Assembly: GCF_003390325.1 (NCBI RefSeq)
Contig: NZ_QUOK01000001.1
Coordinates: forward strand, 620,001 to 684,000
Length of the DNA stretch: 64,000 nt
From: Rhodohalobacter sp. SW132
Lineage (GTDB): Bacteria; Bacteroidota; Rhodothermia; Balneolales; Balneolaceae
Direction of reading: 5' to 3'
Part shown: positions 13,355 through 17,939 of the stretch, one piece after another
Layout: every line of letters begins with the position of its first letter
How positions within the stretch are numbered: the stretch's first letter is position 1
The notes under the pieces: model-generated
What the model was told of the DNA's origin: nothing
What the model saw: only the letters and a program-made list of their open reading frames with translations
Databases searched by the model: none
Program-made: the position numbers and the translations under genes

Positions 13355-13948
13355 ATGAGTAAAATCGACTTTTTTAAAACCTTTATTAAAGATCGCGACG
13401 TAGCATCTGTTATTCCCACTTCTATGAGGTGCGTAAAAAAAGTGTGTACCCATATCGATTTTTCCCAAGATTTTACCCTTGTTGAATACGGCCCGGGAAA
13501 TGGAGTGTTTACCAAATATCTTCTGGATAAGATGACAGAAGGGAGCCGCCTTATACTTATCGAAGCCAATGAAGATTTTGTGACTGAACTGAATGAAACC
13601 ATTAAAGATCCGAGGGTTTCCATCAACAATGTACTTGCCGGTGATGTAGAAACCGTTCTGGATCCCGATCAGGTCGGAAATGTGGACTATGTACTTTCAG
13701 GTATTCCCTTCTCCTTTCTCAAAAAAGATCGTAAACGGGCGGTTCTAATTGCCACAAAACGAATTTTGAAGGATGGGGGAAAATTTATCGCCTATCAAAC
13801 CAGCGGGCACCTGAAAAAACCGGTTATGGAGGTTTTTGGCAATTACGATATCGAATTTGAGATGCTCAATATTCCGCCCTACCTGATTTACGACGTAGTG
13901 AAAAACAGCAACGGAGCTGAATCAGCTGCAGGTAAAACGGGAAGCTGA
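13355..13948 (+). CDS. Class I SAM-dependent methyltransferase, phospholipid N-methyltransferase (PmtA)-like
   Basis: A 197-residue Rossmann-fold methyltransferase. SAM motif I is VEYGPGNGVFTKYLL (about 43-57), followed by the acidic motif II (LILIEANEDF). The segment before motif I, VASVIPTSMRCVKKV, resembles the membrane-binding start of Sinorhizobium-type PmtA enzymes, which methylate phosphatidylethanolamine; rRNA-dimethylase (KsgA)-like proteins share parts of this pattern, so the substrate is inferred only. It follows uvrB by 15 bases and its last codons lie just before a strong terminator. Confidence 0.75.
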   Translation: MSKIDFFKTFIKDRDVASVIPTSMRCVKKVCTHIDFSQDFTLVEYGPGNGVFTKYLLDKMTEGSRLILIEANEDFVTELNETIKDPRVSINNVLAGDVETVLDPDQVGNVDYVLSGIPFSFLKKDRKRAVLIATKRILKDGGKFIAYQTSGHLKKPVMEVFGNYDIEFEMLNIPPYLIYDVVKNSNGAESAAGKTGS

Positions 13949-14066: not shown

Positions 14067-14444
14067 TTAATTCTCTTCGTCAGGATCGTCCTGCTGAGGA
14101 ATTGCCGGCTGTGACTGCGAAGGCGCCGTAAAATCATTCATTTCGCCAGGTTGTTCCTGCTGCAGGCCTGGTACTCCCTGCTGCTGGATTGTGCTTTGCC
14201 CGGATCCTCCGCGATCGATGGCAAAATTTGCAAGGACACTCAGTGCCAGAAAAAGTGTTGCAAGAATCGTTGTGGTTTTTGAAAGTAAATCTGCGGTTCG
14301 TCTGGCTCCCATTGCAGCACCACCGGCCATACCCGCGGCAAGACCACCGGTGAGCCCCTCTTTCTGACCCGGCTGCAGCAATACAACTACAATCAATAAA
14401 ATTGCGATGAGCGTGATCAGTGATATGATAATTCCGTAAAGCAT
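14067..14444 (-). CDS. secG: Preprotein translocase subunit SecG
   Basis: Small partner of SecY and SecE in the protein-export channel. The 125-residue protein has two membrane helices (about 3-23 and 55-73) joined by the Gly/Ala-rich cytoplasmic loop LLQPGQKEGLTGGLAAGMAGGAAMGARR typical of SecG, in which QxGKxxGL-like wording is recognisable. The C-terminus is a low-complexity Gln/Pro/Asp tail, longer than in E. coli but common in Bacteroidota relatives. Single gene, divergent from the mscS gene. Confidence 0.92.
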   Translation of the reverse strand: MLYGIIISLITLIAILLIVVVLLQPGQKEGLTGGLAAGMAGGAAMGARRTADLLSKTTTILATLFLALSVLANFAIDRGGSGQSTIQQQGVPGLQQEQPGEMNDFTAPSQSQPAIPQQDDPDEEN

Positions 14445-14580: not shown

Positions 14581-15549
14581 ATGGATGATTTTCAGCAATA
14601 TTTAGAGCAGCTTTTATCGCAAACACCGCTGCAGATGGGTAACATCATCGAAACGATTATAATTATCCTGGTTCTCATTGTGATTCGTTTCGTAATTGTT
14701 CGAATTGTATACCGGCAGGCAGAGGATACATCCACACGGTATCGCTGGCGTAAAAACGTTACATACACAATTGTATTCATCGGTTTTTTGCTGATTGGCA
14801 GAACCTGGATTGAAGCAATCGGTTCACTTGCAACGTTTCTGGGGCTGCTATCAGCCGGTTTAGCAATCGCATTGCGCGATCCTGTTACCGACATGGCCGG
14901 GTGGGCTTTTCTGATGTGGCGAAAACCGTTCAATGTCGGAGACCGTATTCAGATCGGGGAAAATAAAGGAGACGTTGTGGATATCCGTTTTTTTAAATTC
15001 ACGATCCTCGAGATTGGAAACTGGGTACACGCCGATCAAAGTACCGGCCGGTTGATTCACATTCCGAACCACCTGGTGCTTCGGGACCCGATCGCCAATT
15101 ACACCAGTGACTTTGAATTTATCTGGAACGAGATCGAGGTGATCTTCACCTTTGAGACCAACTGGCGAAAAGCGAAATCAATCATTGAAAAAATTACAAA
15201 CGATCATCTGAAGGATTACGTGAACGACGCAGAACAGCAAATTCGCCGGGCAACGAAATCATATCTCATCCACTATCGTAACCTCACTCCCATTGTGTAT
15301 ACGGATGTGGTGGATGACGGAATCAAAATGACGATACGCCACCTTAGTAATCCAAGAAGCCGGCGCGGTATTAATCAGATGATCTGGGAAGACGTTCTGG
15401 ATGCAGTAGCAAATGAAAATGATATTGATTTTGCGTATAAAACGGTGCGAATATATCAAAATCAGATCGAGGGTAAAGAGAAGCTGAAACCGGCAAAAGA
15501 CGATTTAGAGCATTCATCAGAACAATCTATTTCGGGATCGGCTGAATAA
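14581..15549 (+). CDS. MscS-family mechanosensitive ion channel
   Basis: A 322-residue small-conductance channel that opens when membrane tension rises and lets osmolytes out after hypo-osmotic shock, in keeping with a saline habitat. Helices at about 20-42 and 58-76 are followed by the pore helix (SLATFLGLLSAGLAIALRDPVTDMAGWAF) and the beta domain that starts KPFNVGDRIQIGENKGDVVDI. The C-terminal alpha/beta domain and a charged tail complete the usual cage. Its last 23 bases overlap the end of the convergent SRAP-like gene. Confidence 0.92.
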   Translation: MDDFQQYLEQLLSQTPLQMGNIIETIIIILVLIVIRFVIVRIVYRQAEDTSTRYRWRKNVTYTIVFIGFLLIGRTWIEAIGSLATFLGLLSAGLAIALRDPVTDMAGWAFLMWRKPFNVGDRIQIGENKGDVVDIRFFKFTILEIGNWVHADQSTGRLIHIPNHLVLRDPIANYTSDFEFIWNEIEVIFTFETNWRKAKSIIEKITNDHLKDYVNDAEQQIRRATKSYLIHYRNLTPIVYTDVVDDGIKMTIRHLSNPRSRRGINQMIWEDVLDAVANENDIDFAYKTVRIYQNQIEGKEKLKPAKDDLEHSSEQSISGSAE

Positions 15550-16162
15550 GAGCAGGATCGTTTTTAGATTCGTCTTTCACCTCTTTTGTTACCCTGTGAA
15601 CGGTGAGTTCGGTTATAATAAATTGTGCCGACACCTCATCAACAATCTCTTCCAGGTCCACGCCCTGCAGCCACTTTTTCCCAAGGGATCGTTTCATAAT
15701 CATAGGCATTGCCTCGCTGATGGGCTTTATGAGCGTGTTCGATTCGGTCATTAACATTTCTGTATACGGTTCTTCATCACCCTTAAAAATGTGGGCGGCT
15801 GCATAGAGCAGCGTATTATCTATCTTTCGCACAAAAAATGGATGATCTTTCTTTTTCTCATCCTTCCAGATATAAAATCCACTCAAAGGTATCAGCGCTC
15901 TTTCATTTGCATCTGACTCAAGCTTTTTCAGCTCATCCAGATCTGTAATGCCGGGTGGCGCACTGCTCTTTTCCATGCTTTTCCCCCAGCGAACTCTTTT
16001 AATCACAAACTCATCTTCGCCAGATTTTGCAGTAATAACCGGGATATGATATCCCCGAGACAGATTGTAATGCGGATCGAATATTACCTCTCCTGAAGGT
16101 TCCAGGTTAAAGTGTTCCATCAGGATTTCCCCATCCGCAAAAAAAGCAATTCGGTTTGACAT
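15527..16162 (-). CDS. Catalytically degenerate SRAP (HMCES/YedK-like) protein
   Basis: Normal SRAP proteins use Cys2 to crosslink abasic sites in single-stranded DNA and protect them. This 211-residue protein keeps the fold signatures (HYNLSRGYHIPVI for YNxAPGxxxPVI; ALIPLSGFYIWKDEKKKDHPFFV for RCLIPAdGFYEW...PFfi; ISEAMPMIM for iHdRMPvIL), but the start MSNR replaces MCGR, Ile98 replaces the active-site Glu, Ser149 stands where the His is expected, and the NAR motif is not visible. I choose the ATG at 16162 by analogy with the family start; one at 16177 adds MPDTL. It may bind DNA without crosslinking. It overlaps the convergent mscS gene by 23 bases. Confidence 0.8.
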   Translation of the reverse strand: MSNRIAFFADGEILMEHFNLEPSGEVIFDPHYNLSRGYHIPVITAKSGEDEFVIKRVRWGKSMEKSSAPPGITDLDELKKLESDANERALIPLSGFYIWKDEKKKDHPFFVRKIDNTLLYAAAHIFKGDEEPYTEMLMTESNTLIKPISEAMPMIMKRSLGKKWLQGVDLEEIVDEVSAQFIITELTVHRVTKEVKDESKNDPALIQPIPK

Positions 16163-16177
16163 AAGTGTATCGGGCAT

Positions 16178-16544
16178 TTATAGTTTTGTTCGAAGTATCT
16201 CTATATATACATTTATAAACAGTTCTCTTCAAGAAGCGTTCACATTCTCCATTGCAGAAAAATCTTATCCATTCAAAAGTGTACCAAGGCTGTTTTAATA
16301 CCGTTACTAAATCGGTATGTATATATGCTACAGTTTATATATTTTACGTGAGTCTTGTTACTGTTCAACGAATGTGTTTCATTTATTTAAGGCGCCCGGA
16401 TTATACCGGAATTTAAAACGCTTTCTTTTATGTTAACAGTAGTTTTTTGAACTGTTATTCATTGAACAGATCGGGCACACTTTTTTAGATATGCTTGTTC
16501 TTTGTTAATTGAAATATTGATTATTAAACGAAAGAGGTACAAAG
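16178..16544. other. Long AT-rich leader upstream of the degenerate DEAD-box gene
   Basis: About 370 bases with no coding frame. It contains the promoters of the divergent SRAP-like and DEAD-like genes, a 6-9-6 palindrome ATACCG...CGGTAT at 16298-16318 that could be an operator, and a short hairpin AACAGT/ACTGTT at 16435-16456. None is well enough marked to name a regulator. Confidence 0.5.
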
Positions 16545-17939
16545 TTGTCGTTTCATCAATTTCGACTAAGTTCTGATATTTTGAAGGGGTTAAAAGATGT
16601 TCAAATTGAAAGCCCCTCATTGTTGCAAAAGAAAATTTTTAATGAAGTTGAGACAGGAACTGATTTAGTTATCAATACCACCTCCGAAGATAAACCGGAG
16701 CTGGGATATTTACTGTCACTGTTAAATTCAATTTCAAAATCGGACCGGCGCCAGGGCACACGCGCTATCATTTTAGCTTCGGATGCCAAAAGGGCGAAGG
16801 AACTGGATGAGTGGGTATGGGCCATCGGCTATCATGCGGGTATTGAAAGTGCCTGCCTGGCGGGTGAAGGCGATACTAAAGAAGATCTGGCAAGTCTCTC
16901 TGCCGGCCCGGTTATCGTCATCTCCACGCCAAAACGGCTCGCGGATATTCTGGAGACCGGCCGTATGGTATTCCGTGAGGTAGAGAAGCTGATTGTGGAT
17001 CAGGCTGATCAGATTGAGGATTGGGACCCGGTTGAGATTATCTCCAAAAGAATTATCAACAGTAAGTGCCAGAAAATTCTGGCCGCCGCAAAAGACAGCC
17101 AGGCACTTCGCGATGCCGAAGAAAATCTGCTTACCGATCCTAAGCTAATGACTCCATCTGAAAAGGCAGAGGCTAAAAAAGGGAATTTAACACAAGATGT
17201 GATCAAGAAAGATCTTACGCAGTACTACATCAATGTCCCACCTCGTTCAAAAATCTCGATCTTAATGGCTCATCTTGATGAGAATAAAAAAGATACGGTT
17301 GTGATTTTTGCTGCCTCCCGCCGAACTGCAGACAGACTCTACAAAATATTGAGGAAAAGCGGCCGCAGGGCTGTCAGCGTGCATGATAAGGTTGATGAGA
17401 ATACATTTAAACAGCGCTTTGGAATGTTTACGGACGGAAATGTTCAGCACCTGATTGTAGGAGAACTTTCCGCCAATGACATCGATCTGGAACACGCCAC
17501 AAAAGTAATCAATTACGATGTTCCTGAAGATGTTAATGAATATAAGCTCCGGGCTGAGCTGGTAGGTGATGGGAAAGCCACCAAAATCTTATCGCTTGTT
17601 TCCAAGCAAGACCGTGGGGATATAAAAGAAATTTGCAATTCTCTTGGTTATGCACCGAAAGAGCTACCCGTACCCAATGAGATAAAAGAGCAGCGCAGTA
17701 GTTCAAAAAACAACGGGCAATCGGGCAAAGAGAAAACGAAATCGCGAAGTAAAAGCAACCGGGGATCAAAGAAAGACAAATCGAAGAGCAAACAGAAAAA
17801 AGCGCCCCGCAGAAATAAAAAAAGTGAACCTGAAGGCCTGCCACGCCCTACATTCGATCAACTCAGCGGCGGCCGCAAAGGAAAGCAAAAAGAAGAAAAA
17901 AGCGGTGTGATTGGTTTCTTCAAAAAACTTTTTTCCTGA
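16545..17939 (+). CDS. Degenerate DEAD-box helicase-like protein with basic C-terminal tail
   Basis: 464 residues from a TTG start preceded by a good ribosome site (AGAGG at 16533-16537, 7 bases upstream). Both RecA-like domains of a DEAD-box RNA helicase can be traced: Q-motif region SPSLLQKKIF, STPKRLADIL (motif Ib), LIVDQADQIEDW where DEAD stands in active enzymes, and a second domain with TVVIFAASRRTADRL. The ATP motifs are gone: the Walker A position reads NTTSEDKPE, DEAD is DQAD, SAT is AAK, and HRxGRxGR is degraded to YKLRAELVG. Residues about 380-450 are a Lys/Arg/Ser-rich disordered tail likely to bind RNA. It may be an ATP-independent RNA-binding paralogue. Single gene. Confidence 0.8.
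   Translation: MSFHQFRLSSDILKGLKDVQIESPSLLQKKIFNEVETGTDLVINTTSEDKPELGYLLSLLNSISKSDRRQGTRAIILASDAKRAKELDEWVWAIGYHAGIESACLAGEGDTKEDLASLSAGPVIVISTPKRLADILETGRMVFREVEKLIVDQADQIEDWDPVEIISKRIINSKCQKILAAAKDSQALRDAEENLLTDPKLMTPSEKAEAKKGNLTQDVIKKDLTQYYINVPPRSKISILMAHLDENKKDTVVIFAASRRTADRLYKILRKSGRRAVSVHDKVDENTFKQRFGMFTDGNVQHLIVGELSANDIDLEHATKVINYDVPEDVNEYKLRAELVGDGKATKILSLVSKQDRGDIKEICNSLGYAPKELPVPNEIKEQRSSSKNNGQSGKEKTKSRSKSNRGSKKDKSKSKQKKAPRRNKKSEPEGLPRPTFDQLSGGRKGKQKEEKSGVIGFFKKLFS

Follow-up and report, generated by a model that had tools for sequence, protein, structure and literature searches.

Comparative sequence evidence indicates that the SRAP-family gene in the window (the whole 64,000-nucleotide stretch of Rhodohalobacter sp. 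SW132 DNA analysed here) encodes a retained pseudoenzyme, hereafter pseudo-SRAP, in which the fold of the family has been kept and every residue of its abasic-site chemistry has been replaced. The adjacent, divergently encoded helicase-like gene, which the first-pass annotation had missed, is likewise catalytically dead by motif content, and it is the best lead to the function of the pair. Taken together, discarded chemistry, strong purifying selection and a retention wider than that of the active enzyme show a second use of the SRAP fold, one apart from crosslinking. Neither a SRAP pseudoenzyme nor a link between SRAP and DEAD-box proteins was found in the literature searched, which left most subscription papers outside.

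A SRAP fold without the crosslinking residues

The coordinates, strand and frame of the gene had been assigned correctly from the start: an intact frame runs from an ATG at 16162 to a stop at 15527 and encodes 211 aa (Table 1). Pfam SRAP (PF02586) matches residues 1-196 at 76.2 bits (gathering cut-off of 27.1), and a comparison with PDB sequences returned SRAP entries only, with YedK on top. The AlphaFold2 model (pLDDT 87.9, pTM 0.86) has the SRAP (BB1717-like) fold by both Foldseek and VIA-align. YedK is the top Foldseek match (E 9.5e-13), with non-SRAP structures scoring far lower, and YedK 6kbu aligns to the model with a VIA-align Z of 22.0 and an rmsd of 2.8 over 197/211 residues. The statement in the first-pass annotation that the fold signatures are kept in an intact frame is therefore borne out by profile, structure and frame alike, and the structural comparison that it proposed returned a SRAP fold with YedK as the best match.

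Table 1 Features of the pseudo-SRAP locus in the window (positions of the window).
Feature	Position	Strand	Description and basis
SecG gene	14067..14444	-	Synteny marker
MscS-type channel gene	14581..15549	+	Synteny marker; convergent with the SRAP gene in most relatives; in the window the two 3' ends share 23 bp tail to tail (15527-15549)
Pseudo-SRAP	15527..16162	-	211 aa SRAP-fold protein without catalytic residues or cysteine; Pfam, AlphaFold/VIA-align, alignment
C-terminal LIQPIPK tail	15530..15550	-	P210 and K211 in 40/40 of the dead clade; canonical SRAPs vary here or lack them
Ser149, replacing catalytic His160	15716..15718	-	His in 29/29 canonical, 2/40 dead clade
Ile98, replacing catalytic Glu105 (GFYIW, canonical GFYEW)	15869..15871	-	Glu in 29/29 canonical, 0/40 dead clade
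Gly71-Thr73, where NAR (Asn75, Arg77) has been lost	15944..15952	-	Alignment, loose in that stretch
Ser2 codon, replacing that of catalytic Cys2	16157..16159	-	Cys in 29/29 canonical, 0/40 dead clade
Intergenic region between the divergent pseudoenzyme genes	16163..16544	.	CPBP gene of most relatives absent
Pseudo-helicase	16545..17939	+	DEAD-box fold without ATPase motifs, TTG start; motif alignment, Pfam, model

An in-frame ATG upstream at 16177 (MPDTLMSNR) contributes only MPDTL, which holds no cysteine, and the MSNR start is favoured by the homologues, whose own starts fall at the M-x-x-R or M-x-R position. A hidden upstream start supplying Cys2 was thus ruled out, as was another Cys or Glu in the active site, since the cysteine count of the protein is zero and Ile98 occupies the Glu105 position. 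These were the two findings that the first-pass annotation had set against its own reading, and neither was made.

In the literature, Cys2 of SRAP proteins has been called "absolutely conserved" by Aravind and colleagues (PMC3765255), and in YedK it forms the thiazolidine, with Glu105 serving ring opening and Schiff base formation and His160 assisting (PMC9436759). By aligning 40 members of the dead clade with E. coli YedK and with 29 canonical SRAPs from their own order, we found all three positions replaced in the window protein (Table 1), and the motifs first read from the sequence (MSNR for MCGR, GFYIW for GFYEW, ISEAMP for HDRMP, NAR absent) agree with this alignment. Across the dead clade Glu105 is replaced by Lys (20 members), Ile (12), Leu (6), Gln (1) or Val (1). 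Asn75 and Arg77, both absent from the window protein, occur in 2/40 and 3/40 members, scattered in a stretch where the alignment is loose. Arg77 is thereby gone in 37/40 members, together with Arg162 in 27/40 (Ala in the window protein) and Thr149 in 12/40; Arg4, Asn37 and Trp106 are present in 40/40. We take Arg77 and Arg162 to be the equivalents of the DNA contacts R98 and R212 of HMCES. The predicted mature N-terminus lies in the Cys2 register in 36/40 members, and the register is shifted in the other 4/40 and in all three copies from family f5. Since the protein is cysteine-free and the general acid/base pair is lost, we infer that pseudo-SRAP forms no thiazolidine crosslink.

Loss in place and retention across Balneolaceae

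In Balneolaceae the gene order at the locus is DEAD-box gene, CPBP protease, SRAP, MscS and SecG. In the sister family f3 the neighbourhood is alike, except that the MscS-SecG block is inverted and that the SRAP is active, the locus SRAPs (L120-L123, L147, L148) retaining MCGR, NAR, GFYEW/GFFEW and H-x-RMP (HDRMP). Among 78 SRAPs placed in a tree, the 40 Cys-less Balneolaceae proteins form one side of a branch with a support of 100/99, so that the tree proposed in the first-pass annotation places the Cys-less form in a single clade. In a rooted tree, this clade is joined by f3 and by the Cys-less f5 proteins encoded next to CPBP (85/95), and the canonical Balneolaceae SRAPs, whose genes sit at unrelated genomic places, fall outside this group (98/96). 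Because the f3 locus holds an active SRAP and because of this rooted grouping, the dead gene is most likely the direct descendant of the SRAP native to the order, with the chemistry lost in place, and the active Balneolaceae copies most likely come from another lineage. Cys2 may have been lost either once for Balneolaceae and f5 together or separately in each (tree support for a common loss, 63/0). SRAPs from other families of the class (n=9) have NAR in 9/9 and a readable MCGR start in 8/9. Since sister families carry the active and the dead form at syntenic positions, the ancestral biochemistry can be compared directly with the derived one.

A functional operon with MscS, SecG or CPBP was ruled out. 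The active f3 gene lies in this synteny too, and CPBP is present in some genomes and absent from others, so that these genes are to be read as position markers. The CPBP proteins retain their EExxxR motif, and the locus as a whole is therefore not decaying. In the window, tblastn of the gap at 16163-16544 gave no trace of a CPBP remnant. A methyltransferase-like ORF lies between uvrB and secG (window 13355-13948).

Distribution was assessed in 67 Balneolaceae genomes with a completeness of at least 90%; family f1 was equated with Balneolaceae by inference, its loci being identical to those of named genomes. A clade-profile search recovered the dead SRAP in 63 of the 67, whole in 62 and split across two contigs in G076, and it is missing in G007, G018, G086 and G087 (genomes of 1.5-2.6 Mb). 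In a scan of named genomes, the Cys-less kind was met in Rhodohalobacter, Fodinibius/Aliifodinibius, Balneola and Gracilimonas. One locus (L062), from a MAG labelled Chitinophagaceae T5-Br10_B2g13, clusters with Rhodohalobacter in both SRAP and helicase trees and is probably mislabelled. The source genome also encodes a canonical MCGR SRAP, a point that the first-pass annotation had marked for checking, at G000:C1:962773-963426 (200 bits), 0.33 Mb from pseudo-SRAP, and most relatives carry both kinds. The dead SRAP is the sole SRAP match in at least 19 carrier genomes, and for five of high completeness (98-100%; G008, G016, G020, G021, G022) the Pfam profile confirms that no canonical SRAP is present. 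The dead form is retained in more Balneolaceae genomes than the active SRAP, and a single clade kept in 63 of 67 genomes goes beyond a chance occurrence.

Pairwise dN/dS is 0.05-0.13 within the dead clade and, similarly, 0.02-0.08 among canonical SRAPs. This range and the retention in 63/67 genomes rule out pseudogene status. With a mean within-group identity of only 0.39 (canonical set: 0.43), fixed positions in the clade are not due to mere recency. Where canonical SRAPs show a conservation of 95% or more, mean retention in the dead clade is 0.83 for structural and 0.38 for polar positions (Mann-Whitney p 0.008), Arg4 and Asn37 being the polar positions retained in all members. Several positions are newly fixed, the C-terminal PIPK being the clearest mark of the clade's own; residues 62 to 90 show no conservation, and the median pI is rather acidic (5.0). 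The intact frame, the dN/dS values, the wide retention, the SRAP fold and the failure of both refuting conditions lend good support to the earlier proposal that a non-catalytic role is under selection.

A dead helicase as the candidate partner

The neighbouring DEAD-box gene has lost its ATPase motifs. In the window's copy, motif I reads TTSEDKPE (for AQTGTGKT), motif II DQAD, motif III AAK (for SAT) and motif VI LRAELVGD (for HRIGRTAR), and motifs Ia and V are also missing. Motifs I, III and VI are gone in 27/27 Balneolaceae copies compared, with motif II altered in all except L070; the f3 locus helicases are intact in 6/6 copies (AQTGTGKT, DEAD, SAT, HRIGR). The Pfam profiles DEAD and Helicase_C still match the protein, at 44 and 40 bits respectively, and its model has two RecA-like domains, for which Foldseek matches include CshA and eIF4A. 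The pseudo-helicases form one clade on a long stem, have dN/dS values of 0.03-0.14 and share 36 fixed positions that vary or differ in intact helicases. Their C-terminal tail, GVIGFFKKLFS, is conserved. Elsewhere in Balneolaceae there is an intact type-1 helicase, which is closer in sequence to the f3 locus helicase. Because it persists there, decay in place and decay after duplication of the locus helicase are both possible.

Within the same 67 genomes, the pseudo-helicase is present in 62/63 that carry the dead SRAP and in 0/4 that do not, a co-occurrence that rests on two absence groups of small genomes (1.5-2.6 Mb, with many gene losses) for two near-universal genes. The sole exception is G078, in which 0.5 kb separate the SRAP gene from the end of its contig. 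A UvrB tree places the four non-carriers in two groups, and its starred branches force at least two changes. G007 and G086 are nested among carriers, and the pair was therefore lost in both. At the empty site of G007 (L208), CPBP lies beside SecG, and SRAP and pseudo-helicase are both missing. In the window and in L057, L058 and L063, CPBP is absent and the pair is present and directly divergent. The CPBP gene thus dissociates from the pair in both directions. Both members were also retained in six genomes in which they are on different contigs (G020, G039, G041, G042, G044, G058).

Among five locus genes in 19 genomes, the rate covariation of helicase and SRAP (partial r 0.44, Mantel p 0.0005) is the highest for either gene, although that of MscS and CPBP is higher still (0.60) without any known link between them. 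Co-occurrence, for which counts per genome are non-independent, and rate covariation are together suggestive of a functional link and are not proof of it. In f5 the locus SRAP is without Cys2 and yet the helicase, 11-12 kb away, is intact, so that the order as a whole shows no strict coupling of the two losses. No shared promoter motif was seen by eye among 32 upstream regions.

Candidate roles and comparison with known systems

In the explanation that we favour, and to which we give an even chance as a whole, a retained pseudo-SRAP acts non-covalently with the pseudo-helicase by binding or scaffolding. An active abasic-site crosslinking SRAP would have become pseudo-SRAP by descent in place, losing Cys2, Glu105, His160 and NAR on the line of descent to Balneolaceae. 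Selection holds the fold, its Pro/Gly/Trp/Met core, Arg4 and Asn37 and has fixed the LIQPIPK tail. The putative partner would be the divergently encoded pseudo-DEAD-box helicase, whose ATPase motifs would have been lost in the same lineage as the SRAP chemistry, and the partnership may act on nucleic acid through the two RecA-like domains and the Lys/Arg-rich tail of the helicase. As at least 19 carriers are without a canonical SRAP, the pair would work independently of one. We hold more tentatively, at somewhat under even, that the two dead enzymes, whose active ancestors were co-located, make up a non-catalytic complex throughout the family, with binding alone having taken the place of covalent abasic-site capture. 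If such a complex exists, a SRAP and an RhlE-type helicase would already have cooperated in their active state. The data suggest that two dead enzymes have possibly been re-used together for a new non-catalytic job, and the loss of catalysis in the same lineage makes the neighbouring helicase a concrete, testable partner.

The first-pass annotation had pointed to a non-catalytic role such as the binding of abasic sites or ssDNA; its non-catalytic part stands, and the proposed ligand is possible but weakened by the loss of Arg77 and Arg162, both DNA-contacting positions, and by the acidic pI. The corresponding alternative, a stand-alone protein whose pocket shields abasic sites or damaged ssDNA without a crosslink and to which the helicase is unrelated, is one that we regard as unlikely but worth serious weight. 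It would fit the intact fold and the invariance of Arg4, Asn37 and Trp106, and Glu, His and Asn mutants of YedK/HMCES lose crosslinking and still bind DNA (PMC9436759). It fits poorly with the erosion of Arg77, Arg162 and Thr149, the unconserved residues 62 to 90 and the acidic median pI, and it leaves aside the co-occurrence and rate covariation with the pseudo-helicase. An altered chemistry, in which the N-terminal alpha-amine (of Ser2 once Met is removed, or of Met1 in MKR/MER types) would form a transient Schiff base with AP sites, with slow lyase activity in place of a stable crosslink, appears improbable. Here the preserved N-terminal register of most members and the Lys at the Glu105 place in half of them are favourable, and YedK C2A/C2S forms a borohydride-trappable Schiff base, with DNA cleavage products arising from SRAP without the Cys2 thiol (PMC9436759). 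Against this, Glu105, which YedK requires for ring opening and the Schiff base, is lost in 40/40 members with no conserved polar substitute (K/I/L/Q/V), and the register is shifted in the remaining members and in f5.

We consider it similarly improbable that the dead SRAP binds proteins in a role of its own and that two independent pseudoenzymes are adjacent by coincidence. The pseudo-SRAPs of family f38 (L218, L221, L223) did arise without a helicase in reach, and the f5 helicase is intact, but same-lineage loss, co-absence in two groups, independence from CPBP and mutual best rate covariation speak for a connection. That pseudo-SRAP regulates the canonical SRAP of its cell, or competes with it in a dominant-negative manner, is conceivable in the source genome and the majority of its relatives, which hold both; it is very unlikely given the many genomes in which the dead copy is the only SRAP match, five of them Pfam-confirmed and near complete. 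A relic gene drifting to loss could account for the four small genomes without it and for the low SRAP profile score. This last reading is already contradicted by the selection data (low dN/dS, no stops, retention in nearly all genomes, and new fixed positions in spite of the low clade identity), and we give it hardly any weight.

Further SRAPs with missing residues were met outside Balneolaceae. Family f5 (L034, L037, L040; L210, L211) has a SRAP by CPBP that reads GFYEW/GYFEW in 2/3 and resembles an intermediate state. In f38 (Bacteroidota), SRAPs of L218, L221, L223 (about 1492-2196) and L226 start with MIER/MVER (L226 with MLPNF), and three of the SRAPs, with GFYAW and ITDRMP, are another case in which Cys2, Glu and His have been lost; no helicase was found within 1.5 kb of the Cys-less f38 SRAPs in the phylum-wide sample. 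Partial losses are seen in Marinoscillum (L088:6001-6699; MIDR, GFYIW) and in Xanthovirga (L089:356-1069; MCDR with Cys2 kept, GFYLW, NAE), where an intact DEAD-box helicase about 0.75 kb from the SRAP gene hints at a possible wider SRAP-helicase link. In another phylum, SRAP-like proteins of Pseudomonas and Halopseudomonas (L090:5965-6615; L091:5947-6597) have MTGR, GYYLW and LAERMP with NAR kept, Cys2, Glu and His being gone. Since SRAPs without Cys2 or Glu thus occur in f38, Marinoscillum, Xanthovirga and Pseudomonas as well, SRAP catalysis has been lost repeatedly, and Balneolaceae are the case with family-wide retention and a dead partner.

Compared with YedK/HMCES (PF02586), pseudo-SRAP shares the fold over its whole length, the M-x-x-R start, WG, GFYxW, MP and a C-terminal LIQP, together with the invariant Arg4, Asn37 and Trp106; it differs in the absence of Cys2, Asn75/Arg77, Glu105 and His160, in the loss of Arg162 from most of the clade and in its fixed LIQPIPK tail, and structure alignments give an identity of 16-21%. 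The active f3 SRAP is its positional orthologue, between SecG/MscS and CPBP/DEAD, and is among its closest active relatives on the rooted tree. The f5 proteins (MFSR/MLTR) are like pseudo-SRAP in being without Cys2, His160 and an intact NAR and in being divergent to the CPBP gene, but they keep Glu105 in 2/3, have no LIQPIPK tail and are accompanied by the distant, intact helicase. With the bacterial DEAD-box proteins CshA, SrmB and RhlE, the pseudo-helicase shares two RecA-like domains in weak matches (121, 111 and 102 bits) that are far under the curated cut-offs, the ATPase motifs being missing. Utp25/Def, a eukaryotic ribosome assembly factor with no SRAP partner known, offers by description, not by sequence, a precedent for it as a DEAD-box-like pseudohelicase of the SSU processome (PMC9539457).
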